A DNA stretch of 28,294 nucleotides from a virus: the IMG/VR virus record IMGVR_UViG_3300020385_000045, positions 1 to 28,294 of that record; one strand, written 5' to 3'. Numbering within the stretch: the stretch's first letter is position 1; the number at the start of each line of letters is the position of its first letter. The translations under genes were made by a program, and so were the position numbers. Positions 4,753-25,959 of this stretch are shown here, piece by piece. The notes below the pieces were generated by a model. The model had not been told where the DNA came from. It did no database searches and saw nothing but the letters and a program-made list of their open reading frames with translations.

Positions 4753-6888
4753 TTAAGGTCTTAGTTGAATCCATTGTCCTACATATGTTGCCGCTGGGTC
4801 TAGCTGACCCTGACCATTATAACCCCATGCAAACACTCGGCCATCATCTGTATACTTAACTACATTACCTTCCGAGCCATAAGCATTGCCTTGTCCATGT
4901 ATGTGAATCACTTTAGTCGGCACACTACCAGCCCAATGATTTGTAGTTACAGAACCAGTTGTATTTTCTTGTGCAATATCTAATCGAATCTTTTGAAGAT
5001 TAGCATCAACACCATTACCGCTAGAATTCTTATTGTAGTCCTGACTGTTAGAATAACCTGATACCCAAGTTCTATACTTAGAATCTTGGAAGTACATATT
5101 AACAGTTGATTGCCCTTGCATACCTCTATTTGCCCATATCCGTATAATATCTGTATTAGGAAATGGTACATCTACTTGAGATTGAGCAGTGCTTGAAGTC
5201 GTAGATGCTACTGTATGAGTAAACGATGTTGATGTTGATGGTGCAGTTGGAGAAGTTTGGTTTGTAACACTATCAATTCCACATTGACCATTAACATTGT
5301 ACCCCCAAATACTTACAGTATTATTAGGAGAGGCAGGAGTCCCACCCTTTACGGCTACAGTACAGTAATATGCGTTACCACCTACAACAAACCCACTGTA
5401 AGTAGCTGAACCGCCAATCCTTGACCAAGTACCAACTTGAGTTGTTGAGCCGACACCAGCCTGACCAACCCCATTACCGCCAATACCATACATCTCGCCA
5501 TTTGTTTTCAAATACCAAGCATGGGCGTATCGACTTGTGTAATAATAACCATCAGAGTTTACAATTTGGTAGACATTGTCTTGACCAGTATCAGTAAACG
5601 ATGAAAGCGTACCACCACTTAATCCGCCATCAACTTCATTCTGTGAACTACCAGCAAAGAACAGGTTTCCACTAGTATCTACAATGTGAGCCGAACCGAA
5701 CCTAGCTGACACCATTGCAATGTTTGACACAGAGCTAATATGTTGAGGCAAGCTTTGGTTTGTAGCATTACCATTACCAATCTGACCAAAACCATTGTAA
5801 CCCCAAGAGAACAAACGCCCACTTGTGTCAATCGCATACACAGTATTGTAAGAAGCATTACCAGTACAAGTTGACATACCTAAATGGAATCCTGCAATTT
5901 GCGTAGATATACCAGCGTGAGTAGCATCAGGGCCAAGAGTTGATATTTTACACCACATATATCTATCTGTAGTATCTCCTAAACCAAGTTGACCATAACC
6001 ATTGTAGCCACGAGCAAACAAATCACCATCTTTGGTCAAAGCAAACATGCAATGAGTAGCGTTCCAGAATCTTACAAAGTAATCTCCGTTCCTCATCCCG
6101 CCATTGTCTTGACTAAAGTTCATAATGGTAAAGCCACTATGTCCATTGCCACCAAGAATGTTATTCATAGAATAAGAGTTAACATCAGAACCCATGCCAC
6201 AAAGTTCATGCTCGTTGTTTAAAAAATATGTCATTCTATAAGAATGATATTGATTTGCTTGTTCAGCATTAGCAATCGGCCCCATTGCTGGGTTGGCATA
6301 AGCGTACTCAGGAATCCAATTGTTAGCGTAATCAGCAAGCCATGCTCTACTACCAGTAGCACCATAAGTAGTACTAGCAGAAGGACTTACATTCCATGAA
6401 ACTGGATCGCCATAATTACATTGAAGTGCAGTCCAACCTTTGTATCCTGACTGTGCGCCAAAAGCTAAATCTGAACCTTGTACTTTAAGAATCTGACCTG
6501 AGCCTCCTCGTGGCAATCGAATTTGACTGCTACCATCATGAGTCATCAAGTCGCCTTGAGTGGTAAGTACGTTCTGGCCTTCTGCCATTACGTTCCAATA
6601 TACTGAGTTTGATGTAGATGGTGTATTAGCAGACCAGTGAGTTGCTACTGACGTTGCATTGCCTGATGCCGCAGTACTGTTAATGTATCGGAATACATTA
6701 CCACCACTTGTTACCAAATCATTTAAACTATATTGTGTTGTGTTGTCATACGCTGGTGCTGATTGATCTAGTATCGAAATATAAGAGCTTCCACTTATAG
6801 ATACTGCGTCATTCTTTTCGTAGACAGTTGCCGTGGCAAACGCACCACGCCAATTAACTCTTAGTTTTCCTATATTAATTGTAGCCAA
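4753..6888 (-). CDS. Tail fibre / receptor-binding protein with RCC1-type beta-propeller
   Basis: 711 residues. The start is TTG at 6888, backed by AGGAGGT five bases upstream. The N-terminus 'MATINIGKLRVNWRGAFATATVYEKNDAVS' and the collar 'GDLMTHDGSSQIRLPRGGSGQILKV' (about 112-136) are typical of marine-phage tail proteins and probably attach it to the other fibre or baseplate. From about 285 on, RCC1-like units recur at roughly 287, 356, 406, 463, 524, 604 and 682, for example D-G-D-L-F-A-R-G-Y-N-G-Y-G-Q-L-G-L-G and S-G-R-L-F-S-W-G-Y-N-G-F-G-Q-I-G-N-G. Seven units match the seven blades of RCC1 folds. The likely role is host recognition. No enzymatic motif is seen. Confidence 0.8.
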   Translation of the reverse strand: MATINIGKLRVNWRGAFATATVYEKNDAVSISGSSYISILDQSAPAYDNTTQYSLNDLVTSGGNVFRYINSTAASGNATSVATHWSANTPSTSNSVYWNVMAEGQNVLTTQGDLMTHDGSSQIRLPRGGSGQILKVQGSDLAFGAQSGYKGWTALQCNYGDPVSWNVSPSASTTYGATGSRAWLADYANNWIPEYAYANPAMGPIANAEQANQYHSYRMTYFLNNEHELCGMGSDVNSYSMNNILGGNGHSGFTIMNFSQDNGGMRNGDYFVRFWNATHCMFALTKDGDLFARGYNGYGQLGLGDTTDRYMWCKISTLGPDATHAGISTQIAGFHLGMSTCTGNASYNTVYAIDTSGRLFSWGYNGFGQIGNGNATNQSLPQHISSVSNIAMVSARFGSAHIVDTSGNLFFAGSSQNEVDGGLSGGTLSSFTDTGQDNVYQIVNSDGYYYTSRYAHAWYLKTNGEMYGIGGNGVGQAGVGSTTQVGTWSRIGGSATYSGFVVGGNAYYCTVAVKGGTPASPNNTVSIWGYNVNGQCGIDSVTNQTSPTAPSTSTSFTHTVASTTSSTAQSQVDVPFPNTDIIRIWANRGMQGQSTVNMYFQDSKYRTWVSGYSNSQDYNKNSSGNGVDANLQKIRLDIAQENTTGSVTTNHWAGSVPTKVIHIHGQGNAYGSEGNVVKYTDDGRVFAWGYNGQGQLDPAATYVGQWIQLRP

Positions 6889-7854: not shown

Positions 7855-10800
7855 TTAGAACCTACCTCCGCCACCCATTGTTAATGGTTCGCTCTCAAAT
7901 TTGCCCTTACCCCAATCAGAAGTCATGTCGTTCATGAACCCTTTAACAAACCACAACCTAGCAAATGGTAAGTTTCTAATCATATGCTTACCTCCCTCGC
8001 CAGTATTACCAGTAAGAAATTGAAACACACCTTTACGCAAGAAGTCATCAGTAATACCTAATCCAGCACCACCAGCGGCAGTTACGGCATCAAATCCAGA
8101 AGTAGAAGGTGGCCCTTTCTTTTCAAACACACCAAATCCTAAGTCAGGCCCTCCTAAAGCGTCAGATATAATTAGTGACTGGTAATACATATCTGAAACA
8201 AGTGACGCAATCCCAGATTGATCGAACGCTCTTAACACTTTGTCTTCAAAATCCATATTATCCCAAGCAAACTCTGCACCCTTACCACCAAATTCTGATT
8301 TAATTTTAAGAGATAGATACCCAAGAATCATAGACGTAGCTATTGCAGTCTTTCTATTACGCACTTGGTCTGTGGCTAAACCAATTGTTATCTTGTTCAT
8401 AGCCGCAAAACTATAAGACATAAATTGGAACGGCATACCTAACAATGGAGATTCGATTCTATGATATCCACGAACTATAGAATCTTCTTCTAAGTTTAAT
8501 TTTTTAGCGACTCTCATAGGTATAAATACAACACCATCAACAATAATAGGCTTGTCTGCTGGTGTACCCATAAGAACTGTATTTAAGATTCCTGAGTTTA
8601 AGCTTGCCCTAAAGCTTTCTTTTGTAGCGTTCATAGAGCTAGGCCATTTTTCAGTATTCCCTACATACAAACCTGAGTTGGTTTTTTCTATTGTTCCATT
8701 TTCAACTAACTCAGCTATTTCTTTAGCCACCTTATCGTCAATGTTGTAACGAGCCGCATATGTAACTTCAAACTGACTTAGCTCTTTCATTTTATCAGAG
8801 CCATCTTTAGCGGCTTTATATGCATTGTGATTTTTACGAACTGCGACATCGATCAAAGTATGAACTCTTGCCATGCTATCAATTTGCTTAAACACTCTAG
8901 TTGCAGGAGCAAGTAAGTTAGCTATGTAAAAAGCATTTTTACCTTTAGCCGCATATTTATCATAGAACCCTTGTGAAAAAGGATTGTTAGCTAACTCTTC
9001 TGTCATACGCAAATGACTAGAGCCAGTAATAATATCTAGTATTTCACCAGCTAATCTGCCCTCTTCTTTATTCATTAAGATTCTTTTATCGCCACTACCT
9101 ATGTCTTGCAGTATACCTTTAAGTGTAGGTAAATCATGCTCCATTAAAATTTTTGATAAATCAGGCAATGTAGAAAATCCTGCACTACCTAAATAATTTA
9201 ATTGAGCCGCATCTCGCATAACTTTTACAGCCATCACATCCCAAGATGATGGGTCTTTACGCATAACAGAGCCAACAATCCTATCGTACATATGCTGATA
9301 GTTCATTCGCACTCTATTAGCTTCGTCCAAACTCTTACCAGCGGCAGACATTTCAATATCAATATCATCTAAAACATCATCCAAAGATGCCATGTTATGT
9401 TTCTTTGCGTACTCGTAACGAGGTGCAACCCTCATTGTGTATGCTTTCATAACTGCCATAGGATCGTTAACAATAAAATCTAATACCAGTTTGTTAGGTA
9501 TATCGATTGCTCTGTGCTTAAAATGTTTTGATTTGCCCATTCCATAGTAAACTACATCTACATCAGTAGAGTCTTTAGAAGCTATACCCATTATTGTATC
9601 TACAGTAGACGATGCTCTTTCAGCAATGTCTCTAGGGTCACGACTTAAATCTTTTTTAATCCATTTGCCATTTTCAAAAATAGTAACGCTTGGATTTTCT
9701 TCATACCATTTAACAAAGATAGCTTCTAATTGTGGTCTGTTAGCATCAATAGCTTCTCTATCCCAAAAACGAGCAAACATATTCTCTTCGTTTTTAGCCA
9801 TTATTGACGATTGAGTAGTATCACTTAGCTCGTCTAATTGAGTTTTCATTTCAGCGTTTTCACGCTCCATCCTTATCTTCTTTCTAAGGAGAGCTTTGTA
9901 GCCATAGATTCTGCTTTTAGTTTTGAAAGGATTATATCTGGGAACTTCGTATCTTTCTAAAACTTCGTATAACTTATCTAATGTAGACTGTTGTTTTTTA
10001 GTTAAACCTATTGTTTTGAATTTCATTTCTAGGTCTGCAATACTGCGTGATATACCATCAATTTTAGTAGCAAAATCACTCATGCCTTCTTTTAATTCTT
10101 TTTGGTAAACAACAAGATCAGCGTCAATATCTTTAATTATTCTTTCGTTGTTTAAAGTTTTATTAGTAAAAAATGTTTTGTTGCCAATCAAACCAGTGTC
10201 TTCGAGTCTTGCACCCCAAGTACTCCAAAACTGGTGCATTATTTCGTACGCTTCTTTATCTACGTCAGACAAACCAAGCTTGTTGCCATTTACATATTCT
10301 TTATTAATACCCTTAACCCACTCGTCAAAACCACGAGGGCCACCAGCAATGTCCAATATTTTTCTTGTGCCTTGGTTTGTTGATCTGCCAAAAATAATCA
10401 TAAGATCATCCATAGCCTTGACCCATTCACCATTACGCATAGCCGCCATCTGATATACTGAGTTACCAAATGATACGCCCAGCTTGTTAACCATGTGAGC
10501 AACGCCACTATCCATAGCAAGCTCAATCATGTACTTCTTAACTTGTACTGGGTATTTGCCTTGGACTATTGTTTTGTAAGGTGTAGCAAGAAACCTTGTG
10601 TAAAAAGCGTTATTAGTAAACCAACTTTCTACTAGCTTCATATTATCAGATGTTAGCTTCTTAGGGTCTTTGCCTGAGTTTCTAGCATCTTCAATAGTTC
10701 TTAAATTACTTTCCGTAGTTAAATCTTCTAAGTCTTTAGTTTCTTTATTAAGTTGTTTACGAACATTAACTAAACCACTCTTGCCTACATTGCCGTCCTG

Positions 10801-12276
10801 CTTAACACCTTTGTCTGCGTGCTTTCCGTATCTAATTATTTCAAAATCTTTTGGAGCAATTTTTATATCGCCATCAACTAGGATTTCACCCATTGCCTCA
10901 GGCTTTAATCTACTTTTATCAATAGCTTCTTTTTTAATCTTAAAAACAATTGCATCATCGCCACCAACTGTCTCAGGCAAACGACCACCTTTATCAGCAC
11001 GAATTGCTGGGTCTTTATGTTTTTCTGCGGTGTAGCTAATAGCAGTATCAAGGTCTTGTGTTAAAGAAACACCAATTTGTTTATCGCCTACAATATCATC
11101 AGGCGTTGCTCTTATAACTAAATTACCATCAGTATCAATAAATCTATCTAATGTAGCTTGACCATAGGTAGGAGTATCAAACTCTGGGTCTGTACCATCA
11201 CGAAATGTAGTCTTTTCATTTGTGCCGTGAAAATAGAAATCAGGGTCAAATGAACCTCTTATTTTTTTCTGAGTAAATTTATCTAATGACTTAAATGTAG
11301 CCTTACTAATCTCGCCAGTTTCATCAATTTCATCAAGTAATCTATCTTTAACTGTAGGGTCTAGGTCATTAACCATTTCATCTAGCTGAGCCTTAAGTCT
11401 TTCCAATGTTTTTGGTATTAACTTTTTACCAGCTTTAATAGTTTCTTCGCTTTCGTCCCCATATCTACGTTGCGATCTTTGAGTTCCATCGCCAATATCT
11501 AATTTTTCTAAATCATTAACAACCAAATCTTCATGTGCTTTTGCTACTTTGCGTGTAGATTTAATTGTTTTAGCCGTTGCATCTATCCTACGAGCCGCAG
11601 GAATTGATACTAAACTACCAATAAGTCCACCAGCTAAAGTAGCAAATCCAATATTCATTGCTGTTTCTTGCCATGTATTCAAAGGATCGAATGGCGCACG
11701 AGCCGTCTCTAGTCCTGCTTGTGTAACTCCTACACCAGCACCAGTGGCTAAAGCTCTCCTAGCTACAAACCCACCAGCAGTTCTTGCACCAGCAGTTACA
11801 AACCCAGCACCAGCAAAAGGTACTGCAAGTAAATTAATTGGGTCTAATACACCAGCAAGTAAGTTTGCACCAAACCCAAACTCACTCATTACTGCTCTGC
11901 GATTTCTGTTTTCGTCAATCGCTCTCTTAATATCTGCTTCTTCTTCTTCGTTTCTAGCACCAACTAAATTAGACCTAAATTCTTCATAACCCTCCATGTT
12001 TTGCAAAGGCACATAATCAACGTCTACATCATCATCACTATACTTATACCAACGATGTGCCGCTTCAATTATAGGGTCATATTGATAACCAATTTGTGCT
12101 TGCCACAAATCACCAAATGTACTTTCAGAATCTACATCAACAATATCTTTACGATAATCATCACTAGGAGGAGCAGTATTAAAAGAATCTGCATTACGAT
12201 TTAACATAGATTGTATTCTACGTTTTTCTTCTTCATCATCCTCGTAAGGATTCCATACTAAATTAAAGTCTGCCAT
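7855..12276 (-). CDS. Giant internal virion protein with hydrophobic channel-like segment and ART-like segment
   Basis: 1473 residues, gp16-like by position (last core gene before the fibres). Residues 1-130 are acidic. Residues about 132-226 are a Gly/Ala-rich hydrophobic region ('FGFGANLLAGVLDPINLLAV', 'NIGFATLAGGLIGSLVSIPA') typical of ejected core proteins that enter the envelope. Residues about 345-485 resemble an ADP-ribosyltransferase fold: F-Y-F-H350-G-T, then G-V-S-L-T-Q-D-L-D-T-A-I-S-Y415, then A-I-V-F-K-I, then G-E464-I-L-V-D-G-D-I-K-I-A. The rest (to 1473) is mostly helical with no motif I recognise. It is expected to be packaged in the capsid core and ejected with the DNA. The start overlaps the preceding stop (TAATG). 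The internal-core assignment is solid, the ART-like part tentative. Confidence 0.85.
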   Translation of the reverse strand: MADFNLVWNPYEDDEEEKRRIQSMLNRNADSFNTAPPSDDYRKDIVDVDSESTFGDLWQAQIGYQYDPIIEAAHRWYKYSDDDVDVDYVPLQNMEGYEEFRSNLVGARNEEEEADIKRAIDENRNRRAVMSEFGFGANLLAGVLDPINLLAVPFAGAGFVTAGARTAGGFVARRALATGAGVGVTQAGLETARAPFDPLNTWQETAMNIGFATLAGGLIGSLVSIPAARRIDATAKTIKSTRKVAKAHEDLVVNDLEKLDIGDGTQRSQRRYGDESEETIKAGKKLIPKTLERLKAQLDEMVNDLDPTVKDRLLDEIDETGEISKATFKSLDKFTQKKIRGSFDPDFYFHGTNEKTTFRDGTDPEFDTPTYGQATLDRFIDTDGNLVIRATPDDIVGDKQIGVSLTQDLDTAISYTAEKHKDPAIRADKGGRLPETVGGDDAIVFKIKKEAIDKSRLKPEAMGEILVDGDIKIAPKDFEIIRYGKHADKGVKQDGNVGKSGLVNVRKQLNKETKDLEDLTTESNLRTIEDARNSGKDPKKLTSDNMKLVESWFTNNAFYTRFLATPYKTIVQGKYPVQVKKYMIELAMDSGVAHMVNKLGVSFGNSVYQMAAMRNGEWVKAMDDLMIIFGRSTNQGTRKILDIAGGPRGFDEWVKGINKEYVNGNKLGLSDVDKEAYEIMHQFWSTWGARLEDTGLIGNKTFFTNKTLNNERIIKDIDADLVVYQKELKEGMSDFATKIDGISRSIADLEMKFKTIGLTKKQQSTLDKLYEVLERYEVPRYNPFKTKSRIYGYKALLRKKIRMERENAEMKTQLDELSDTTQSSIMAKNEENMFARFWDREAIDANRPQLEAIFVKWYEENPSVTIFENGKWIKKDLSRDPRDIAERASSTVDTIMGIASKDSTDVDVVYYGMGKSKHFKHRAIDIPNKLVLDFIVNDPMAVMKAYTMRVAPRYEYAKKHNMASLDDVLDDIDIEMSAAGKSLDEANRVRMNYQHMYDRIVGSVMRKDPSSWDVMAVKVMRDAAQLNYLGSAGFSTLPDLSKILMEHDLPTLKGILQDIGSGDKRILMNKEEGRLAGEILDIITGSSHLRMTEELANNPFSQGFYDKYAAKGKNAFYIANLLAPATRVFKQIDSMARVHTLIDVAVRKNHNAYKAAKDGSDKMKELSQFEVTYAARYNIDDKVAKEIAELVENGTIEKTNSGLYVGNTEKWPSSMNATKESFRASLNSGILNTVLMGTPADKPIIVDGVVFIPMRVAKKLNLEEDSIVRGYHRIESPLLGMPFQFMSYSFAAMNKITIGLATDQVRNRKTAIATSMILGYLSLKIKSEFGGKGAEFAWDNMDFEDKVLRAFDQSGIASLVSDMYYQSLIISDALGGPDLGFGVFEKKGPPSTSGFDAVTAAGGAGLGITDDFLRKGVFQFLTGNTGEGGKHMIRNLPFARLWFVKGFMNDMTSDWGKGKFESEPLTMGGGGRF

Positions 12277-15200
12277 TACCCTAATAATGCCTTTGCCATT
12301 TCTTCAGCCCTGTTAGGTGTTTGTTGATACCACAATGTACGGCTTTTCTCAGTGACACCATCTTCTTCGTAATTATAAAGCATATGCTTAGAAGCTTCTT
12401 GAAGAGCTTTTTTCTGCTCAACACTATTATAATCAAATGTGCTTGCTTTTTTTACTGCCGCTAAAAATTTAGGCCATGATTTTCTTGCTTTTGAGCTTTG
12501 TATATTTGTTAAATCAAGCTGATAAGCCATACTAACCATTGCAGTTCTTGCTTTAATTGGAAGATTACTAAACTTATTACCAGTTATATTATTCCAACCT
12601 TTGATAATTTTAGTCACTTTAACCTTAAGAACTTTTCTACCTTCTTCTTTAGTCACATTATTGATGTTTTTAATTAAAGCTCTCTCATCAGAAGTAAGTG
12701 CTGGAATGTACATACCAAAAGCAACACTAAAATTTTTACCATCTTTATATTGTCTAGGGTTAAAACCTTCTTGCGTTTCAAGTAAAGCCATAGAGTTTGC
12801 AACTAAATCTGTGTTAGTGCCAATCTCAGCAGAGTTATCTCTTGAAGGTGCAGTTTCAGATGGTGTTTCTAAAATCTTTTTGTTTTTTTCTTTTTCAAGA
12901 ATATCAACTTTTAATGAGTTAATTTTATCTCTTATTGCTTTTCCTTCTTCAGAATTAACATCAAGAAAATTAGGGTCTTGCGTTAAAGCTTGAATCTTTT
13001 TTTTGTTTAGTTCTATAAATGCATCTATTTCTTCAACCTCTTGATCAGAACTTAATGGATCACCAGAATTAATCATATCTTGATCGATTGTAAATTCCAC
13101 ATATCCATTGTCAGTTGATTCATCCATGACGTATTTCATTTCTAAAACACCACCATTATCTGCAACTGTAATTGCTCTGTATGTAATTTTGCCATCCATT
13201 GATGAATTAGGCATAGGCATTAAATAAGTCGGCTGATCTCCATAAACATCTTTAGATTGGAAAGCACCAAAAACATCTTTATTTGCTCCACCAGCCGCTA
13301 ACGAAAGTGCCGCACTTGGCTGTTGTTCTTTAATACTTTGTTTGTCTATATAATTTTCCGTTACTGCTCTAGCAAAAGTAAACCCTTCTGGCAGTTGCGT
13401 TTGCCATCGGGTAAGCGCTTGTTCTATTTTTGCGGAAGATAGACGTTTAGAAAGTGCAAATGGAGATACCATTGTTCCATTATCACCATCCCAGCTTCCA
13501 CCATCGGTAACTGGTGTAAATACAATACGGCTTGGAATCTGATAATCTTTTAACTTTTCTTTAATAGCCTCATCCATTTGATCAAGATTAGATATTTTAC
13601 CTATAGACACTTGTTCTGTTGCCCAAGGTGTAAGTTCCATTATCAGTCTTTGGTTGTTGGTAGTTAAAGCCACTGCCGCTTGTATGCTAGTAGGTTTAGG
13701 AAGAGTTTTATCTTCTTGATAAGCATTGTTTATGTTATCTAAAAATACCGTTCTAAACCCACTACGTTCTTTTTCATCATTAAACATAGTCAATTGTTTA
13801 ATTAACTCAGTAGCTTGACCATCGCCTCCACTAACCCTTGCTACAGATAAAGCGTACTCAATTCTAGCCATTGATTTCTTATCAACTTTATGGCCTCTTA
13901 ATTTATTGCCATCTAGTAAGTTAATAGTTTCTATCTGCCCTCCATTGTTTACTTCAAAAGCAGTTAATGCTTTGTAAACATTGAAAGCGTTTTCATATCT
14001 ATTTGTAATTACTTCCTTATTAGCGTCAGACATGCCACTCGTAATAATACCTAAAGTACCATCGCCAAGACCATTCAAATGGCTAACAATTGGCTCAGGT
14101 AATCTATTATGTGCCATAGCAGTATTAACTACATTTGCCCATAACGGATGAACTTTATTAGTTCCTTTATCTATGAATGGGGTCTTGGTAAACCACATAG
14201 GGTCACGCTTAGTCTTGTCAGGCTCTATATCTTTCCAGATTAAATCATTAATAATATCATCAATCTGTTGGCTCTTCACATCGTTCTTTGCATTTACATC
14301 TTCATAGCCTCGTCTAATAGCCGCATCTTTACTAGCTGATTTAGTAGCCCTTTCAAAAGAATCTTTAAGCTCAGTCATCATTGTTGATGCCGCATCACTA
14401 GTAAGCATTACTTGGTTTTTAGTAATGCCATTTATTAATGGTTTAAATTCTTTAGGCAATATTGCTAAATCAGATTTACCAACTACAAACGCATTAGCTA
14501 AATTATCAACATCTTGTTTAGTTAGCTTGCGTTTAATTTCTTTTCCTTGAGAATCTTCAAAAGTGTATTCTGTATCCACTTGGCTTAAGAGGTGACCAAA
14601 TGAACCTCTTATAATAGCGGCAACTTCTGCATCTCTTGCTTTAATAATTTGACTTCTGTCGTACGGAGATTTGTCTTTTAACGACTCATGCTCTTTTAAC
14701 ATTTTATTAAACTTAATTATTTTTTTGTCTAATAACCTATTTATTTCGTCAGAGTCATTAATAACATCAATGTTACTAGCTTCACTCATTACCTTTTTTG
14801 AATCATCTATAATCTTAAACAATTCATTAGTTTTTTCTGCCTTTAGTACTTTAAGTTCATTGCCTTCAATCTTTGAGTCTGTGTTATTAGCAGTTGTAAT
14901 AGACGAACTAGTGTCGCTTAGTGTAGGCTCAAAAATTTGATGAAAATCTTTAGCACCAGAAACTGACCTAAATTCTCTATAAGCAGTTTTAATAGAATCA
15001 AATTGTGTTTCAGTTATAATTTTTTTATCTGCGTCACTAACGTCTTGTTGATAAATTAACTGATCCACATCTCCAGCGGCAGTTATGCGTTTTAATGCAC
15101 TAATAGTTTTTTCAGTAAGACCTTTATCGTTTTGTATCGGCTGAAGAATAGAACGTAGTAAACTGTAAGTAGTAGCTTTGTAAGCTTTATCTACTGATTT

Positions 15201-16502
15201 ACCAAAATTGTCTTTGCTTACTTTTGCCTTTACGCCATCAGCAGATGGTGTGGTTTGATTCCCTAGCTTGTTAAGGCCTTCTACAATTTTCCTTAATGTA
15301 GGAACATAAGTTGGATTATCGGTAACTAAAGTATCAGTGCTTTTCTTAATTTCTGAATTAGCAGTATCGACAAGTTTTATTTCGTTTCTCTTATTGATTA
15401 GATCAGCTTCATTATTTTCTTCATTTCTAATAACGTCAGCAGTAGTTATAGTATTTTTTAAGTATGCAACTACATCGTCTCTATCAGTAAGCTTTTCCAT
15501 TCTTTTGTTTGTGTACTCAGCATATTCACGCATTGTCATTTCGGGCAACACTACTGTTTTGCCGTCTGTACCCATTACAGTTCTTTTAGGAGCAACTATA
15601 ATTGAGTCATCAAACTGCATAAGCTTTGTATCTTGCGGAGCTAAAATATAATCAAGTAACTTTTGTTTATTAGAAATGCTTGTAATTATTTTCCTATTTG
15701 CTTCTTCAATTCGCTTAACCGAATTGCTAACACCAGCACCAGTAAGCACATATCTAGTAATAGAACCTTTAACCATTGAATTGTTTAGGTAAGAAAACGC
15801 TTTAGACGCATCCTCAGGCCCTAGTACGTTTCCAGTTTTACCTTTATCAATAATTGTTTTTTGAATGTTATAAGTATTTATTATGTCTTGGTCTGATGCA
15901 TTTGCTCCATACATGTTTGTAATGGTTTGACTGGATTGTTCTGAGCTAATTAAAATATTTTCTTTTAGATGAGTTTGAGCTTTTTTAATTTGAGCAGACT
16001 GAATACTTAATTTTGTTGACGCTAAATATGTAGAACCATATCTATCGATAAGATTAGCGTAGATGCCAGTAGCATGTTGTTTCATTACCTTTATGTTTGA
16101 ATCAAATGTTGTGGCGTATTTGTTAGGGTCGTTAGGATACTGAGCTTCAACTCTTTTAGCCATAGCTTGTATTTCTGAAGCTATGCTTTGTTCGTATTGA
16201 GTGTTTACTGTATCTTGGAAAGCATCCCTTGCTATTCTGCCATAAGATGTAGGCATAGCATCAAACGCTTCAGGCTTCCCAGTTTTAGGATTTATAGATC
16301 GTAATTGATTTTCACTAAGACTTTTAGCAAATGTCTTTCCTTCACGCTCTGCGGTAATACCAGCTTCTTTAACTGCCATAGCAGTAATATTGTCAGCAAG
16401 TTTAGTTACTGAGTCTTGAACATCAACTGCACCTCTTGACGCTTTAACAACGCCAATTTGTTGATTCCTAAACTTTGTAGCTTCTCGTATTACACCAGCC
16501 AT
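12276..16502 (-). CDS. Giant internal virion protein with C-terminal GH24 (T4-lysozyme-like) domain
   Basis: 1408 residues. The first ~1200 are Lys/Asp/Asn-rich and mostly helical, as in T7 gp15/gp16-type core proteins. The last ~170 residues (from about 1235, genome 12279-12800) look like T4 lysozyme: 'LLETQEGFNPRQYKDGKNFS' holds E1245 and D1254 with the same nine-residue spacing as the T4 catalytic pair, followed by S1259 where T4 has Thr. Further on come 'KARTAMVSMAYQL' and 'SRTLWYQQTPNRAEEMAKAL', close to the T4 'SRWYNQTPNRA' block. The likely role is ejection with the genome and local cutting of peptidoglycan during DNA entry. T7 instead uses a transglycosylase at the N-terminus of gp16. 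Start MAGVIREATKF; the stop overlaps the next ATG (TAATG). Confidence 0.87.
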   Translation of the reverse strand: MAGVIREATKFRNQQIGVVKASRGAVDVQDSVTKLADNITAMAVKEAGITAEREGKTFAKSLSENQLRSINPKTGKPEAFDAMPTSYGRIARDAFQDTVNTQYEQSIASEIQAMAKRVEAQYPNDPNKYATTFDSNIKVMKQHATGIYANLIDRYGSTYLASTKLSIQSAQIKKAQTHLKENILISSEQSSQTITNMYGANASDQDIINTYNIQKTIIDKGKTGNVLGPEDASKAFSYLNNSMVKGSITRYVLTGAGVSNSVKRIEEANRKIITSISNKQKLLDYILAPQDTKLMQFDDSIIVAPKRTVMGTDGKTVVLPEMTMREYAEYTNKRMEKLTDRDDVVAYLKNTITTADVIRNEENNEADLINKRNEIKLVDTANSEIKKSTDTLVTDNPTYVPTLRKIVEGLNKLGNQTTPSADGVKAKVSKDNFGKSVDKAYKATTYSLLRSILQPIQNDKGLTEKTISALKRITAAGDVDQLIYQQDVSDADKKIITETQFDSIKTAYREFRSVSGAKDFHQIFEPTLSDTSSSITTANNTDSKIEGNELKVLKAEKTNELFKIIDDSKKVMSEASNIDVINDSDEINRLLDKKIIKFNKMLKEHESLKDKSPYDRSQIIKARDAEVAAIIRGSFGHLLSQVDTEYTFEDSQGKEIKRKLTKQDVDNLANAFVVGKSDLAILPKEFKPLINGITKNQVMLTSDAASTMMTELKDSFERATKSASKDAAIRRGYEDVNAKNDVKSQQIDDIINDLIWKDIEPDKTKRDPMWFTKTPFIDKGTNKVHPLWANVVNTAMAHNRLPEPIVSHLNGLGDGTLGIITSGMSDANKEVITNRYENAFNVYKALTAFEVNNGGQIETINLLDGNKLRGHKVDKKSMARIEYALSVARVSGGDGQATELIKQLTMFNDEKERSGFRTVFLDNINNAYQEDKTLPKPTSIQAAVALTTNNQRLIMELTPWATEQVSIGKISNLDQMDEAIKEKLKDYQIPSRIVFTPVTDGGSWDGDNGTMVSPFALSKRLSSAKIEQALTRWQTQLPEGFTFARAVTENYIDKQSIKEQQPSAALSLAAGGANKDVFGAFQSKDVYGDQPTYLMPMPNSSMDGKITYRAITVADNGGVLEMKYVMDESTDNGYVEFTIDQDMINSGDPLSSDQEVEEIDAFIELNKKKIQALTQDPNFLDVNSEEGKAIRDKINSLKVDILEKEKNKKILETPSETAPSRDNSAEIGTNTDLVANSMALLETQEGFNPRQYKDGKNFSVAFGMYIPALTSDERALIKNINNVTKEEGRKVLKVKVTKIIKGWNNITGNKFSNLPIKARTAMVSMAYQLDLTNIQSSKARKSWPKFLAAVKKASTFDYNSVEQKKALQEASKHMLYNYEEDGVTEKSRTLWYQQTPNRAEEMAKALLG

Positions 16503-16511
16503 TATTAACCC

Positions 16512-16961
16512 TTAAACACTAACTGTATTATAATTGTACAATCCAGTAATCAAACTGTTCATTGCTTCAACTTTTGATTTCTCTTTAGCCATTCTGCCAC
16601 GATGCAAGTCTTGCGCTCGTGCGTATCTTATTTGTCCTTGCTCAAGTAGTGACTGATAATTGCTACGCTTAACATCTGAAAAAGCAGTTTCTTGATTCTT
16701 TCTCATAAAAGCTTTGTAACTTTGATCACTTACATCTCTGCCAAGAAAAGCAAAATACGCTTCGTTTACTGATTGGTTTACATCTAACTCAGCAATCCGA
16801 TCATTGGCTCGTTGTTGAGCAATAATCTTTTCTTGTGCCAGTCTTAACTCTTCTTGTTGTGCGTCCATCTGATACGCAGTCTGTTCCATCCCTCCTTTTT
16901 TCAAAGAAGACATTACAGAAAGACCAGTTGAAACTGCCGTTAATGCCATCATATAACTCAT
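16512..16961 (-). CDS. Internal core protein, T7 gp14-like
   Basis: 149 residues. A short hydrophobic N-terminus (MMALTAVSTGLSVMSSL) is followed by a long Gln/Glu/Arg-rich helix ('QQEELRLAQEKIIAQQRANDRIAELD') and a Gly-containing C-terminus. Position directly after the nozzle gene and before two giant core proteins matches T7 gene 14, whose product inserts in the outer membrane and starts the ejection channel. Identification rests on order and architecture, since gp14-like proteins are poorly conserved. The ATG overlaps the nozzle stop (TAATG). Confidence 0.72.
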   Translation of the reverse strand: MSYMMALTAVSTGLSVMSSLKKGGMEQTAYQMDAQQEELRLAQEKIIAQQRANDRIAELDVNQSVNEAYFAFLGRDVSDQSYKAFMRKNQETAFSDVKRSNYQSLLEQGQIRYARAQDLHRGRMAKEKSKVEAMNSLITGLYNYNTVSV

Positions 16962-19237
16962 TAGAAAGATACCTCCGCAACTAAACCATTAATATCTAAA
17001 GACAACGGATACGCTTGTGAAATTGTAACTGTTGGGTCTTTGTCGTAACCTAAGAATCTAAACTCTTTTTTGCCAGTAAAAGGTATTCTACCTAAACTCA
17101 AGTCATCTGTAACATTTCGTATTATTAAGTTTTGATTGTTAACATTTACTGCCAATGTATTTGAAATATCGATTACAACTTTGTGAATACTTCTTGCTTG
17201 TCCAGTAAGAGGGCCACCTTGTATAGAGCCATCAATAGGCATTGTTTCAGCAACTACATTAAACTCGTATCCTATTTCTGCCGTTGTTATTTCTTGTACT
17301 GCTGACACATCTACCTTGCCATTAGCTACTGTAAATTTACCCAAGTAATCAGTGCCATTAACAACAGACACAACAGCACCGTTATCAAAGTGGTATTGGA
17401 CATCAAACACTCCTGCCGTTCCAGTATAAGACACAGAGAAATCCATATTTTTTGTAGGATCAAATTCTGTAAGTATAAATTTACTAGTGCCGTTACCCTT
17501 GTTGTACTTTGTAACAGTGTAAACAATGTTATCAATCACTTGTACAGAATGGAAAGCACCATTGTTTGTTGTAATTCTAGTCCAACCAGCACGCTTCTCT
17601 GATCTATTAGATGTAAACAGTGCAATAGTTCCATCTAAACAAACGCAAAACAAGTAACTCTCAGGTCTTGTGTTCATACCATTTAGAACTGCCATCTGTA
17701 TTGGTTGCACTATTAAGTGTGGCGACAATGTACTTACGCCTGATGAAACGTATGCGGCCTCTGAATCTGAATAAAGATACTCACGCACAACTTGATTGTT
17801 AGCTTGAACGTACACAGTCGCACCATCATAAGACTGTGGTCTTACATAACTAGAACCAAACGGAGTTTGTCTTTTAATCTGTGCATTTGTAGGTGTAATA
17901 GGTTCAGCAGTAAAAGACGGAATGTAAAATTCAGATGATGATGTAAATATCTGCAAGTCTCTGTTAGATACAATGTGACGTATTGTATTAATTTCACCAA
18001 TACTAGCAGTAAGATTTAACGAGTCTGTAGCTTCAGCATCGCCAACATCGAAGTTAAAGTACGCATTAGTAACACTTGCCCATATTCCGTCAGGTTGTCC
18101 TAGAGTGCCACCAAACCACAATCGGTTCTCATGGAAGGTAACTGCGGCTGGATAGCCTCTGATGACGCTCCAAGAGCCTTCAGACCACTCTGTTGTAGGT
18201 GCGTGTGAAGTTATCCTAGGCGCACCTCCGCCATCTATCGATGCATTTGCGTTTGCTCCTGCCGTAATAAAGTAATGATTTGCATCTATTACTTCTTGTA
18301 CAGTCCTTACACCATTAATATTTGCTGGTGTAATCGATGCAATAGTTCCTGCTCTTGAGATTGTAATTGAATCTCCAGTATTTAATCCGTGATTAATATG
18401 CGTTACCTCAAGATCGGCAGTGCCATCTACTGAACGAAACGCATCAATATCCAAGTCAACATATAACTCACGAATGATTTTACCAGTTATTTGAGTTTCA
18501 GATTGCACGCTAACAATCTGTATTTCAGAGTTTTGATATTTAAGACTAGCTCCAACATGCTTACTATCTAGGTAATTACCACCAGTCGTAGTGCCAGTTA
18601 CATCAAAATAAGAACCGCTTGTTGTACACACAACCGAGTTTCCAGTAGTAGCCGCAGGATCAAGCGTCATGTTTCCTACTTGGAATTGGTTGTATGGCTG
18701 AAACAAATCTCTACCATCACTACTTTGGTCATAAACAAAAGTGGTAACTTGAAAATCAGTAAGAGATGTCCGAGACAATATGCGTGGCATAAAGCTTTGG
18801 TGAGCAATAATCATTGTGTCACCAGTTTGTGCATATGTTAATTCGTGTAAATTACTTTTAGTAAATGGCAAAGCCGCAGGAGATTGCTCAGAATCTAAAA
18901 CAACTGAGTCTACTAAAGTCAAAGTGCCACTAGTAGGATTAATAAAGAAACAACGTATCTTTAAGTCTTCCATTGAGATGAGGTACTTTTCATCATCAGA
19001 AAATATAAAAGGTATTAATCTATGTTGTTGAATATAATTGTCTGTATCAGGAACAGTGTCGAACTCATAAAGTTTAGTCGTGCCAAATCGTTTAGCTAAA
19101 CCACCTTCATTTTTAAGAAAGAAGTTTTCTACTTGTAACCCAGCGTTTTGATAAACATTAGTATCAGTTCTTGAGATTAAATTAGGACTAACTTCGCCAA
19201 ATTGAAAGTTACTGATAGGCACTCTGATTCTTGGCAT
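16961..19237 (-). CDS. Tail tubular protein B / nozzle (T7 gp12-like)
   Basis: 758 residues. The N-terminus 'NFQFGEVSPNLISRTDTNVYQNAGLQVENFFLKNEGGLAKRFGT' (quoted as the family signature: F-x-x-G-E-x-S-P, N-x-x-x-x-x-x-G-G-x-x-x-R-x-G-T) is the standard opening of phage nozzle proteins. Other family features are 'HRLIPFIFSDDEKYLISM', 'VTFHENRLWFGGT' and 'ESYLFCVCLDGTIALFT' (propeller-like strands). It forms the distal hexameric tube below the connector through which DNA and core proteins leave. It begins at a TAATG overlap with the connector gene. Length is near that of T7 gp12 (about 790). Confidence 0.92.
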   Translation of the reverse strand: MPRIRVPISNFQFGEVSPNLISRTDTNVYQNAGLQVENFFLKNEGGLAKRFGTTKLYEFDTVPDTDNYIQQHRLIPFIFSDDEKYLISMEDLKIRCFFINPTSGTLTLVDSVVLDSEQSPAALPFTKSNLHELTYAQTGDTMIIAHQSFMPRILSRTSLTDFQVTTFVYDQSSDGRDLFQPYNQFQVGNMTLDPAATTGNSVVCTTSGSYFDVTGTTTGGNYLDSKHVGASLKYQNSEIQIVSVQSETQITGKIIRELYVDLDIDAFRSVDGTADLEVTHINHGLNTGDSITISRAGTIASITPANINGVRTVQEVIDANHYFITAGANANASIDGGGAPRITSHAPTTEWSEGSWSVIRGYPAAVTFHENRLWFGGTLGQPDGIWASVTNAYFNFDVGDAEATDSLNLTASIGEINTIRHIVSNRDLQIFTSSSEFYIPSFTAEPITPTNAQIKRQTPFGSSYVRPQSYDGATVYVQANNQVVREYLYSDSEAAYVSSGVSTLSPHLIVQPIQMAVLNGMNTRPESYLFCVCLDGTIALFTSNRSEKRAGWTRITTNNGAFHSVQVIDNIVYTVTKYNKGNGTSKFILTEFDPTKNMDFSVSYTGTAGVFDVQYHFDNGAVVSVVNGTDYLGKFTVANGKVDVSAVQEITTAEIGYEFNVVAETMPIDGSIQGGPLTGQARSIHKVVIDISNTLAVNVNNQNLIIRNVTDDLSLGRIPFTGKKEFRFLGYDKDPTVTISQAYPLSLDINGLVAEVSF

Positions 19238-19830
19238 TAGCTTGTCCTTGCTACAATAAACCTCGATGTTGTTAGTTTTGCAGTTGTGCTTTGTTGTGAG
19301 TCTAGGTTTCTAGCTTTTGACATAGCCTTATCTGCTTGTGTAGTCATCAAGGTAGCGAGTGAAGCGTCACGAGCAATAGCCGTTGCAAACACAATTGCTA
19401 TTGAATACTCAACTGCTAACGTAAAATACGAAGGCCAATTGATTTCGTTTGCTCTAAAAGAATAGTCAGCAACAAGCTGATCTGTTGTTGATTGGTTACT
19501 ATAAACCATATCGCCATAGATTTGATAATCTATAAGCTGGTCATTTACTGTAACACCATGAAGCATAATAAGATCATTAGGTAACTGAGAAGCTAACTCC
19601 CATCTACCAGTAGGTGTAGCAGACAAGGTGTTTAACACGGCTTGCTCTGTAGCAAAACGCCACCTAGAGTTTGTAAGTGCCGCCCTTGTAATATCCTCAT
19701 ACATATTAACGGCAACAATAGATTCGGTACTGCCATCGTCAAAAGACGTAATAGGATTAGCACCGACCAGTATCAACGCCCTGCTACATATATCTATGCC
19801 ACTATTTGCTGAAGTACTGGTCGTTGCCAT
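19237..19830 (-). CDS. Tail tubular protein A / head-tail adaptor (T7 gp11-like)
   Basis: 197 residues. 'ICSRALILVGANPITSFDDG', 'NMYEDITRAALTNSRWRFA' and 'LPNDLIMLHGVTVN' match the gp11 adaptor family, which forms the dodecameric ring between portal and nozzle. A second hallmark is the helical C-terminal half with 'FTLAVEYSIAIVFATAIARD'. There is no good Shine-Dalgarno directly before the ATG. A strong hairpin lies 9 bases upstream, so translation may depend on that structure or on read-through from the capsid genes. Overlaps the nozzle start by one base. Confidence 0.9.
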   Translation of the reverse strand: MATTSTSANSGIDICSRALILVGANPITSFDDGSTESIVAVNMYEDITRAALTNSRWRFATEQAVLNTLSATPTGRWELASQLPNDLIMLHGVTVNDQLIDYQIYGDMVYSNQSTTDQLVADYSFRANEINWPSYFTLAVEYSIAIVFATAIARDASLATLMTTQADKAMSKARNLDSQQSTTAKLTTSRFIVARTS

Positions 19831-20150: not shown

Positions 20151-20963
20151 CTAGTTGTTGTCTAAGACTTCATAGATACCGTTGCTATCAATAACAACTG
20201 CACCCATTGACATCATAGATGTTGCAAGATGAGCTACTTTCTCAGGAATGTAGTTCAACTCGGTTGAGACATCAGCACCGACTCCAAGTCCAACAGATGA
20301 CGTATGGAAAGCAATATTCTTACCAGCCGTAATCGCACTTGTAGAGAAGATGTTAAAGCCAAGAAAGTTCTTCATAGTCATGCCACCAGCAAACGGAAGA
20401 TTCTGCTCACCTACAAAGTCTGAACTTGCAAACTCTGTAATGTTAAACAAATCAGCATAGCCTTTAGGGTGCATAGCTAGGAAACGTCCACCATCTTCTG
20501 GAATGTCAGCAGAACCCATAATCTCAAACAATGAGAGTAAGTCAGCCTTAGAAACGGCAGAACCAGTCGCACCGATCTGAGTTGCGTTTGCTCCTGCATC
20601 CATAGCAGTAATGAGGATTTCATCAGTTTTACGACCCAAAGCTGCGGCCGCACTTTTAGCTACTGCCTGACGCTCGTCAATGTTAGTCTTCAATTCGTCT
20701 AACTTGTCGATGTATTCAGCGGCATAAAAGTCACTCATGGTTGCTTCTACTGTGGTGTGTGTAAGCTCCATAGGAGTTACCATACCATTTCGTGATTTAG
20801 TAGACGCAGTTCCAGTTCCAATCTTTTGAAAGCGTACAACGCTCCCTTGTACATTACCTACAGTACGCACAGTATTCCGTAATTTACTGCCCATACGCTG
20901 ATAAGCCATATGTACTTCAGATTCAAACTGTTTAATAAAGGCGGTATCAATAGAATTTGCCAT
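20151..20963 (-). CDS. Major capsid protein (HK97 fold)
   Basis: 270 residues. 'DTAFIKQFESEVHMAYQRMGSKLRNTVRT' then 'VRFQKIGTGTAS', 'HTTVEATMSDFYAAEYIDKLDELKTNIDER' and 'AVAKSAAAALGRKTDEILI' match a family of small HK97-fold capsid proteins of podoviruses: E-loop after the N-arm, spine helix with D-E-L-K, P-domain strand 'AAEYID'. 'GGRFLAMHPKGYADLFN' and 'GFNIFSTSAI' are the A-domain part. Position after scaffold agrees. RBS AAAAGGA. A candidate late promoter motif (21103-21112) lies 140 bases upstream inside the preceding gene, which would allow extra capsid transcription. Confidence 0.9.
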   Translation of the reverse strand: MANSIDTAFIKQFESEVHMAYQRMGSKLRNTVRTVGNVQGSVVRFQKIGTGTASTKSRNGMVTPMELTHTTVEATMSDFYAAEYIDKLDELKTNIDERQAVAKSAAAALGRKTDEILITAMDAGANATQIGATGSAVSKADLLSLFEIMGSADIPEDGGRFLAMHPKGYADLFNITEFASSDFVGEQNLPFAGGMTMKNFLGFNIFSTSAITAGKNIAFHTSSVGLGVGADVSTELNYIPEKVAHLATSMMSMGAVVIDSNGIYEVLDNN

Positions 20964-22314: not shown

Positions 22315-22576
22315 TGTTTTTCACCTTATGTGCATGGTTAATACGAGATTCAATTAAACCAACTAAGTATCGTTGGCCTTCAACATGGCGTAACTCCTCG
22401 TTTGATACGTTAGAGCCATGTACTAGTTCTATAGTGATAGAACGTAGATACTTTAAGACTGCTTTACCAGTGTCCGTGTTAAATGTATGAGCAATGTTTA
22501 GGCTGATTTCGTGGTCTTCTTCTCTCTTCCGCTGAATCCCATCTAATCCAAGGTATTGTTTACTGTTGTTCTGCAT
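22307..22576 (-). CDS. Bbp19-like small phage protein, unknown function
   Basis: 89 residues. 'IAHTFNTDTGKAVLKYLRSITIE' and 'EELRHVEGQRYLVGLIESRINHA' fit a small helical family I know from podoviruses as Bbp19-like (F-x-T-x-x-G-x-x-V-L-x-x-L and E-G-Q-R-x-x-x-x-x-I). Encoded between portal and scaffold, overlapping both (17 bases with the portal, 8 with the scaffold). No established activity; a morphogenesis role is inferred from position. Confidence 0.65.
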   Translation of the reverse strand: MQNNSKQYLGLDGIQRKREEDHEISLNIAHTFNTDTGKAVLKYLRSITIELVHGSNVSNEELRHVEGQRYLVGLIESRINHAHKVKNNE

Positions 22577-24203
22577 CAGGTGGCATCATGCCTTCCATGT
22601 TTTGAGTTTGTTGTTGCATCTGTTGTTGCCCTTGCAAACCCATCTGTTGTTGTTGTTGTTGCTCTGCGTACTCTTGTGCCATCTGCACAAGTTGCTTACG
22701 CTCTGCTAAATCTCTTATCAAGTTATCAGGAACACCAAACTTCTTAGCTAAATAAGCCGCAGTCTCTTCTGAGTTAATAAGAATGTTCATGATGTCAGGG
22801 CCAAATCTAGTCTGAACCATCTCAAGAAACCGAGCAACGGACGAGATGTCTTGATTGGATTGTGCTTGAGCGAGAGGAGAAACACTACGCACTTTGACTT
22901 CTCGTCCGTTTATCGTAGGTAGCTCTATTCGACCTTGCTTCTTCAGAATATATACAACTCTTTGGAGGACTGGTTGGACAAGTTCTGCTTGCAATCTGCC
23001 AAAAGCACTACCTATTCGTCTTGATAAATCAGCCATACGCTCTGCAACTTCAGTAGCAGACGCAGGAGTTCTGTCAGGATTACCTAACATATCATTATAT
23101 AACGCTCGTTTAATGTTAAGCCTCATGTCATTTAAGACAAGACTCGCAACATCAAAGCTACCAGCCGCCGCAACTGGTTGTAATCCTTGACTATTTGGTG
23201 CTTTTGGAATTACAGTTCCAGGAACGAGATTGATTGTATCAGGGTTAATGACACCATCATCATCCATTTGATAGATGCCTGAGATAGCCATCTGTGCATT
23301 TTCTAAAATCAATTCTATTGTAAGGTTGGTGGTCTTGATTGCACTTAATGCGTTCATCAAAGGGCCTCGCCCATAGACTTCACCCGAACATTTAGACCAT
23401 CTAAAACAGACAAACGGATTTGAGCCTACGCCTTTGTAGGTTTCCATCTTAATCATTTCTTTTAGATTAGGTTCTATAGCATAGAACATAAACTGGTCTT
23501 CGTTTTTAACAGAGTAATCTCTGCAAACTACCTCAAGTATCTTTGTACGCTCTTCGGGTTGGTTCGATATCTTTCTTTGTAGCTTGTCTGAAATGGTTGC
23601 CTTAGGATACATAACAGGAATATCTGAATTACGGCAATGACGTTCCCTATAAACATGGTCAATATAGTCATCAGGGCCAGTATCAAGAACAATGTGAGGT
23701 AAAGGAACTGCCGTAAAATTAATAGGATGAATTGCGTCACCCTCTGAAACAACAAGCACACCAGTTCCCACTGCCAAGTCCATAAAAGACTCATGAACTT
23801 CTTGAGCAAAGTTAGAGTTCTGTATAATCTCGAATACATACTCGGTTACTTCATCAAGCTCGTTATTGACTGAATCACGTTCTTCTTTAGGCGTTTCGCT
23901 TCCTGCCGTAAAGTCTGCCCAGCGTGCGAAATTTGGTACAAGACCCGACTGTAAACGTGACGCAAACTCTTGAACACCAACAACTGCTGTCTCGTCAAAG
24001 ATTTTATCATCTCTACGTTGACCAACGCTCTCAGAGTAAAAACTCTCACGCATCGGGAGAGCGTATTCGTAACACTCTTCAAATAGAGGCACGAAATTTT
24101 CCCGATGTTGCTTAGCTTTTTGGTACAGACGTAAATACTTTTCAGCAATCTTTTGCTGATCGATTTGATCTGATGGGTTAACTGCATCATTGTAATCCAG
24201 CAT
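22560..24203 (-). CDS. Portal protein (T7 gp8-like head-tail connector)
   Basis: 547 residues. 'KYLRLYQKAKQHRENFVPLFEECYEYALP', 'VVGVQEFASRLQSGLVPNFARWADF', 'AVGTGVLVVSEGD', 'PFVCFRWSKCSGEVYGRGPLMNALSAIKTTN' and 'TPASATEVAERMADLSRRIGSAFGRLQAELVQP' are the conserved blocks of the T7-type portal family, in the right order. The dodecamer forms the DNA entry vertex and binds TerL and the connector. The C-terminus is a long Gln/Met-rich tail (about 508-547, with runs of six and three Gln) that looks disordered and is encoded by a CAA/CAG-repeat tract. It starts directly after the stop of the gp7.3-like gene. Confidence 0.93.
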   Translation of the reverse strand: MLDYNDAVNPSDQIDQQKIAEKYLRLYQKAKQHRENFVPLFEECYEYALPMRESFYSESVGQRRDDKIFDETAVVGVQEFASRLQSGLVPNFARWADFTAGSETPKEERDSVNNELDEVTEYVFEIIQNSNFAQEVHESFMDLAVGTGVLVVSEGDAIHPINFTAVPLPHIVLDTGPDDYIDHVYRERHCRNSDIPVMYPKATISDKLQRKISNQPEERTKILEVVCRDYSVKNEDQFMFYAIEPNLKEMIKMETYKGVGSNPFVCFRWSKCSGEVYGRGPLMNALSAIKTTNLTIELILENAQMAISGIYQMDDDGVINPDTINLVPGTVIPKAPNSQGLQPVAAAGSFDVASLVLNDMRLNIKRALYNDMLGNPDRTPASATEVAERMADLSRRIGSAFGRLQAELVQPVLQRVVYILKKQGRIELPTINGREVKVRSVSPLAQAQSNQDISSVARFLEMVQTRFGPDIMNILINSEETAAYLAKKFGVPDNLIRDLAERKQLVQMAQEYAEQQQQQQMGLQGQQQMQQQTQNMEGMMPPDAEQQ

Positions 24204-24486: not shown

Positions 24487-25959
24487 TTATAACCTCGCCC
24501 ATAGCGATTTCTTCTTTCTTTGTGCTGGTTGCCTTGCAAATACATCAAAATCTTTCCTGCCATTAAAGGCACTTATAGGTTTTTGTCCACGCATAAGTTG
24601 TCTGCCCTCACCAGCACCTAACATTAAGTACTGAAGTGCATCATGTATGTGTGAGTACATATTCTTATCGGGTTTATCATCGAATCTTTCGCCCGATACA
24701 TTCAAGCGTCTATAAGAATAGCCACTTTCAAACCCTTTGATTAAAGTTTCGCATCTTCTGTCTACAAGAAAAGCTGGTTTACCCTCTACCATCTTGTTAA
24801 GTGTGCTTGAAACTGACTCTAAACGTAGGTCAACAGAGTTACTGGGAGCAGGAGTTGCCCTTAACCCAGCACCACGCATGATTTGGAATGGTGTTGACTC
24901 ATCTGTTTGCGCTCGGAAGTCACCAGCAGGGTCGCCATAAATATTAACATCTAAGTGAGCAAACTTTGTGGCTATCTCTTGGCGTAATAACTCAGCAAAC
25001 CTAACAATACCCATGTCAATTGCTACAATTTCAGACTGTATTAGCCATCTACCCCTAACCTTTTGCCCAAAAACTGCGGCTGGTGTAAGGCCAAAGTCGA
25101 TTCCAATGTATAAAGGCACGCCATCTGCAATAGGTATTGGCTCTTTTGATATGTGTGTGTCGCTTACAAACATTGGATATACTGGTTTACCTTCTTGAAT
25201 TGAGCCTAATCGGTTCATTACATAGACATCAATCCAGCTTTTAGTCTTACCCCTTATAAGGTTCGTGTAATAAGTAGGTAACATATTAGATATGTTCTCT
25301 GCTTTTACATTTATATCATAATCATCAATGTTTCCATCAGTAAGTTTCTTTTCTATCATCCCTGCTGGTTGTGTATAGAACGACCAATTGTCAGGCTTAA
25401 CTAACATTCGTGCTTGTTCCACGCCTATGTGGTCAGGAATAGGAACTTCTCCAGACATGATAGGCCACCAATGATCTTCTTCGGGAGCATTAGTATCTGC
25501 TATAACCCCTGACCAACTTGGGCCTCCTTCTCGCATTGAAGGGAATCTGCCAACACGCATTGTACAAGCGTCAATAATACTCTTAGGTATTTCTCTAGCT
25601 TCGTTAATCCATATGCCAGTAAGTTCGAGTGATAGTAGCTTTTTGACATCCTCAGGTCTGTCCAAAGCCAAAAAAAGAACCTCAAGTTCGAGGTCAGCTT
25701 GCTTAATCCAATGAGTGTAGGGAACGCTCCACATAAATTTCCCCCATTCCTCTTCGGGAAACCAGTCAAGCCAAGTCTTAATAGTGGTTGTTCGTAATTG
25801 TGGATTAGTATTTCTAATAATCGCCCAGCGAGAACGTCTTACACCCTTGTCATTAGGCTTTTGTTGTAACGCTCTGCGGAATATTTCAACGCAACAAGCG
25901 ACAGACTTACCACTTCCTACTGGGCCTCGTAAGCCACGAAAGAAGTTGTCGTTCTTCAT
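24487..25959 (-). CDS. Terminase large subunit (TerL); true start probably upstream of this ATG
   Basis: 490 residues from ATG 25959. ATPase: Walker A G-P-V-G-S-G-K18-S, Walker B with catalytic Glu in L-T-G-I-W-I-N-E120, coupling motif 'GVIADTNAP' (151-159). Nuclease (RNase H-like): G-I-D288-F-G, 'NIYGD343PAGD' and H-I-H-D440-A-L-Q-Y-L. It packages DNA into the procapsid and cuts it. The reading frame continues without a stop upstream of the ATG for 42 codons. The closest 18 codons give K-I-I-T-N-F-K-Y-K-P-D-G-E-V-V-K-S-F, which looks like the conserved TerL N-terminus. No ATG, GTG or TTG exists there, and ATG 25959 has no properly spaced RBS (GGAG is 17 bases away). See findings. Confidence 0.93.
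   Translation of the reverse strand: MKNDNFFRGLRGPVGSGKSVACCVEIFRRALQQKPNDKGVRRSRWAIIRNTNPQLRTTTIKTWLDWFPEEEWGKFMWSVPYTHWIKQADLELEVLFLALDRPEDVKKLLSLELTGIWINEAREIPKSIIDACTMRVGRFPSMREGGPSWSGVIADTNAPEEDHWWPIMSGEVPIPDHIGVEQARMLVKPDNWSFYTQPAGMIEKKLTDGNIDDYDINVKAENISNMLPTYYTNLIRGKTKSWIDVYVMNRLGSIQEGKPVYPMFVSDTHISKEPIPIADGVPLYIGIDFGLTPAAVFGQKVRGRWLIQSEIVAIDMGIVRFAELLRQEIATKFAHLDVNIYGDPAGDFRAQTDESTPFQIMRGAGLRATPAPSNSVDLRLESVSSTLNKMVEGKPAFLVDRRCETLIKGFESGYSYRRLNVSGERFDDKPDKNMYSHIHDALQYLMLGAGEGRQLMRGQKPISAFNGRKDFDVFARQPAQRKKKSLWARL

Follow-up and report, generated by a model that had tools for sequence, protein, structure and literature searches.

Does the large internal virion protein encoded in the window (the whole 28,294-base virus record analysed here) carry an ADP-ribosyltransferase (ART) domain that could act on the host as the phage genome enters? 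Injected phage ARTs are on record for T4 Alt, for polyvalent proteins and for the virion RNA polymerases of N4-like phages, and those of the polyvalent proteins have been published as predicted injected effectors (PMC5512222, PMC9503650). Among podoviruses and siphoviruses, a survey puts the share with an ART at only 3% (PMC9503650).

The segment in question is enclosed by a 1473-aa ORF (12276..7855, minus strand), for which the PHROGs search gave a match to phrog_342, 'internal virion protein with endolysin domain' (E 2e-44). In a single-sequence hmmsearch the family HMM matched T7 gp16 in four collinear blocks (E 6e-7), whereas hhalign of the family against the single T7 gp16 sequence gave no match. 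The structural cassette of the window has the T7-type order of terminase, portal, scaffold, capsid, tail tube A and B, followed by gp14-, gp15- and gp16-like genes (Table 1). Given its homology, its collinearity and its place after the gp15-type gene in this cassette, the ORF product is an ejection (internal virion) protein similar to T7 gp16, and the virus is a marine podovirus of T7 type, which bears out the initial annotation of a T7-type internal virion protein. By homology, the protein is presumed to be present in the virion and to be expelled into the host. In T7 gp16 a transglycosylase domain occupies the N-terminus and an ART is absent. The murein hydrolase of T7 is found on gp16, whereas in the window a lysozyme-like domain is found on the gp15-position protein, with a Phage_lysozyme match slightly below the gathering score. 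The closest annotated phage relative of the 1473-aa protein is from Pelagibacter phage EXVC031P Hodr (27% identity). No ART domain could be recognised in the gp16-like protein of that phage (OQ414635.1), whose record bears the name EXVC031P Hodr but locus tags reading EXVC032PBaldr.

Table 1. Coordinates of the predicted features in the window and the evidence for each.
Feature	Coordinates	Strand	Evidence
Predicted gp16-like internal virion (ejection) protein, 1473 aa, carrying the predicted ART domain	7855..12276	-	phrog_342, family HMM, cassette
gp15-position large protein, 1408 aa, lysozyme-like C-terminus	12276..16502	-	Phage_lysozyme E 2.8e-4, residues 1244-1345
gp14-position small internal virion protein, weak match	16512..16961	-	phrog_418 internal virion protein E 0.007
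Tail protein, tail tube B position	16961..19237	-	phrog_376 E 1e-109
Tail tubular protein A	19237..19830	-	PF17212 E 1.9e-6; phrog_394 E 1.2e-35
Major capsid protein	20151..20963	-	PF19821 E 1.2e-63
Portal / head-tail connector	22560..24203	-	PF12236 E 3.8e-98
Terminase large subunit	24487..25959	-	phrog_2 E 3.2e-20
Predicted ART-fold domain, residues 335-497	10786..11274	-	AF2 model m2542dc71395f; mean pLDDT 70.3, pTM 0.70; VIA-align
H350, predicted catalytic His, strand 1, YHGT-type motif	11227..11229	-	invariant in A6; model strand E13-19
Y415 (AISYT), predicted Tyr after the helix following strand 2	11032..11034	-	invariant in A6; follows model helix H75-80
E464 (GEILV), predicted catalytic Glu, late-strand start	10885..10887	-	invariant in A6; first residue of model strand E130-134
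E460, second invariant Glu (E-x-x-x-E464)	10897..10899	-	invariant in A6

Positions 11244..10822 of the minus strand correspond exactly to residues 345-485 of the ORF, and the strings FYFHGT, GVSLTQD..AISY, AIVFKI and GEILVDGDIKIAP, from which an ART had been proposed, are all present there. In the alignment A6, which has 12 sequences with 28-94% identity to the window, 18 of the 163 window positions are invariant and these include H350, Y415 and E464. The chance that three positions named beforehand are all invariant is about 1/900 (18x17x16 / 163x162x161), although the reader who named them was possibly drawn to residue types prone to conservation. Among the invariant columns are H350-G-T, G402-V-S, Y415-T, R432, E460, E464 and E479. 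Purifying selection on the segment was seen in all close pairs compared, with dN/dS values of 0.01-0.28 (window/L002 0.28; L004/L005 0.04; L116/L119 0.03; L118/L139 0.10; L019/L018 0.01).

The three dimensional structure of the segment has been predicted with AlphaFold2 from a 12-sequence alignment (scores in Table 1). In the segment numbering of the model, to which 334 is added to obtain the residue numbers of the protein, H350 is placed within strand 1 (13-19), Y415 directly after a helix (75-80) which itself comes after the strand 67-72, and E464 at the opening of a late strand (130-134). Foldseek ranked Tpt1 first against the PDB (probability 0.87) with a weak E-value of 0.11; against the viral library the E-value was also weak (0.002), the top three matches had probability 1.00 and were all unnamed, and a 'PolyVal ADP-Ribosyltransferase' stood at rank 30. 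VIA-align was run on the Foldseek candidates with solved structures and 50 entries were listed. The best of these were Tpt1/KptA structures with Z of 8.5 to 7.1 (top match: Z 8.5, rmsd 2.4, 90 residues aligned), followed by DarT (6.1), TreTu (5.4), Arr (5.2) and heat-labile enterotoxin A (LT-A, 5.2); PARPs, the diphtheria toxin catalytic domain, RES and CC0527 (2o0q/2o0p) are also in the list. CC0527 is a DUF952 protein, presumably of the same Pfam clan, and when it is counted as an ART-superfamily member none of the 50 solved structures listed has a clearly non-ART fold. Since a Z of 8.5 alone is near the level which unrelated folds can reach, the argument for the fold rests on the uniformity of the match list. 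From the model, residues ~335-497 very probably form an ART-superfamily fold. The segment unites a predicted split beta-sheet ART fold with conserved His, Tyr and Glu in the elements expected for the H-Y-E group. The model, its matches and the placement of these three residues hence support the H-Y-E type of ART fold read from the sequence at the outset, and the structural comparison proposed with that reading has turned out in its favour.

In sequence searches the segment gave chance matches only against Pfam, NCBIfam, PHROGs and PDB sequences, and no curated ART family was matched. PF18760 (ART-PolyVal) had no match at E 10 among the 12 family members and none in three ART-bearing contigs, while the record of Roseovarius Plymouth podovirus 1 was matched; PF01885 (KptA/Tpt1) was absent from the matches at E 10 among the same 12 members. 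With a very small ART-PolyVal profile of three sequences, hhalign aligned the YHGT motif alone. In A6 the third catalytic-type residue is an invariant Glu and not the Asp of ART-PolyVal (H-Y-D), and an invariant His stands on strand 1 where the Alt type (R-S-E) has Arg. Because no curated family is matched and the Glu sets the domain apart from the H-Y-D type, it has been placed in the ART superfamily and not in ART-PolyVal, Alt or KptA. Cellular relatives were not found in the genome-contig scans with two ART alignments. A tblastn match in Gordonia phage Lilbeanie was rejected as a chance one, since the gene annotated there is encoded by the other strand.

The missing ART matches in Pfam, NCBIfam and PHROGs would also suit an unrelated alpha/beta insertion in which the motifs match by coincidence, as would the earlier AlphaFold2 model from five close homologues, which was poor (pLDDT 51), matched no fold and was replaced by the 12-sequence model. 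Such an accidental resemblance is very improbable, as the deeper model gives ART-superfamily matches throughout the 50 listed and the His, Tyr and Glu residues occupy the expected structural elements. The fold may on the other hand be genuine and catalytically dead, or purely structural, acting as a module for folding or for interactions within the ejectosome. The domain does sit within a structural protein, its presence is optional among the relatives and diverged ART folds are sometimes inactive. However, the three catalytic-type residues and the second Glu are unchanged even at 28% identity, in a domain that is otherwise largely variable; this is the pattern expected of an active site, and we consider a dead or structural domain unlikely.

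The fate of the NAD+ is a further point, as it may be used with no modification of a host protein, by an NADase, a DarT-like nucleic-acid ADP-ribosyltransferase or a KptA-like RNA 2'-phosphotransferase. The top structural matches, Tpt1/KptA and then DarT, act on RNA and DNA, which speaks for this possibility. The KptA-like form of it is weakened by the alignment of the model (residues 335-497), in which Tpt1 takes part with its C-terminal lobe only (chain residues ~91-183), and by the unmatched PF01885. Tpt1/KptA is the closest solved fold among those listed as far as the ART lobe is concerned, but its other lobe, the N-terminal RNA-binding lobe of KptA, is unaligned, and KptA is not known to have a Glu at the position equivalent to the late-strand E464. 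Taken together, use of NAD+ on something other than a host protein is a rather doubtful reading, though one to be kept in mind. The best explanation, and a fairly likely one, is a mono-ADP-ribosyltransferase of H-Y-E type that would be injected and act as the genome enters, its activity, target and delivery being inferred; the domain is probably an active enzyme that would be delivered into the host.

The distribution of the domain among relatives has been explored by IMG/VR scans, the first of which gave six matching loci; two more extended the set to the wider family of gp16-like proteins, with about 150 loci. The segment is recognisable in 15 IMG/VR contigs besides the window. In a 61-protein alignment, the stretch of window residues 222-560 comprises 339 residues in the window, and in proteins without the domain it has 142-146 residues (L033, L123 and L162) or is down to 49-59 in others. 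ART carriers are found at three places in the core tree, namely the window with L104, L003 and L004; L101; and L165 with L116, L118 and L139. As read from the 61-protein alignment, the ART lies before a conserved coil motif in the L165 group and after it in the window. Between the window and L165, identity is 51% for the ART and 47% for the core; between the window and L101 it is 28% for the ART and 57% for the core. Exchange or separate acquisition of the ART fits, because the ART and core identities disagree. The ART domain is an optional module at a variable site of gp16-like proteins. In L103 and L105, HExxH segments (FFHELYHGK and LFHELNHSS) replace the ART in the variable stretch, and in L162 such a segment (LLHEFQHGT) occupies a second site, around residue 774. 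By their motifs these segments are putatively metallopeptidase-like; a Pfam peptidase match was absent from L020 and L021, the other copies of L103 and L105. Polyvalent proteins also feature zincin-like peptidases. About 300 extra N-terminal residues were observed on the gp16-like proteins of L048, L049, L053, L091 and L159; L049 and L090 had no significant Pfam match.

The flanking HMM blocks align window residues 109-280 with T7 gp16 298-454 and 635-705 with 576-655, and the ART insertion thus maps between gp16 residues ~455 and 575. This point falls inside gp16-C of T7 (411-1118), which a review assigns to the host cytoplasm after ejection, and the same review of T7 ejection describes functional domains swapped between ejection proteins (PMC8954989). 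The ejection protein would be packed in the head core and expelled before the DNA, the ART domain unfolding for passage and then refolding at the cytoplasmic side of the inner membrane. NAD+ is located in the cytoplasm, where the refolded domain may bind it. A host macromolecule would then be mono-ADP-ribosylated before the expression of any phage gene, with the transcription machinery, a defence component or a nucleic acid as possible targets. Carried by the ejection protein that goes in first, an enzyme would be at work ahead of phage transcription, and its site of action would be the hub which T7 work has placed in the cytoplasm, adjoining the incoming DNA.

T4 Alt resembles the predicted domain as a virion-carried ART delivered with the DNA; it is a free-standing myovirus head protein with an R-S-E active site (PMC5512222), whereas the window domain is of H-Y-E type and is inserted inside a podovirus gp16-type ejection protein. 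The ART-PolyVal of the Roseovarius Plymouth podovirus 1 vRNAP (CBX87992.1) is likewise an ART with a YHGT motif in a large podovirus-ejected protein. It belongs, however, to an N4-like virion RNA polymerase, has a Pfam ART-PolyVal match and falls in the H-Y-D clade (PMC5512222), in contrast to the invariant Glu, the unmatched PF18760 and the T7 gp16-like carrier of the window segment. A similar fold is present in a solved podovirus ejection protein, as residues 1421-1606 of cyanophage A-4L ORF27 (Anabaena phage; pre-ejectosome, PDB 9k3a chain B) align with the model at Z 4.1, as entry 50 of the 50 in the VIA-align list. Its YHGT motif starts at residue 1425, and a sequence search with the family profile missed this chain. 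The ART-like region of ORF27 is C-terminal, whereas that of the window protein is internal. ORF27 (L185, 20116-25269, minus strand) is annotated only as 'tail protein', though its structure has been solved as chain 9k3a_B of the pre-ejectosome.

An ART in a T7 gp16-type internal virion protein, swapped in or out, was not found among the open-access papers that were searched. The initial annotation had seen in such a protein a different route to modify the host at entry; the route is only partly new, because other proteins injected by podoviruses have already been described with ARTs (PMC5512222). A wider proposal, which we offer tentatively, is that the cytoplasmic hub of T7 gp16-type proteins in marine podoviruses has a cargo bay for exchangeable enzyme domains, among them an ART, a metallopeptidase and perhaps others. 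The channel that translocates the DNA would then itself modify the host where the phage enters, and the ART would be a new H-Y-E family distinct from ART-PolyVal. Such an optional, exchangeable site offers a simple means of searching abundant marine phages for further entry effectors, and H350, Y415, E460 and E464 provide a defined residue set for testing.

The window has also shown the presence of a 711-aa protein with RCC1 repeats (E 2.7e-21) at 4753-6888 on the minus strand. A beta-propeller is unusual beside virion genes, and this one is perhaps a tail fibre or receptor-binding protein.
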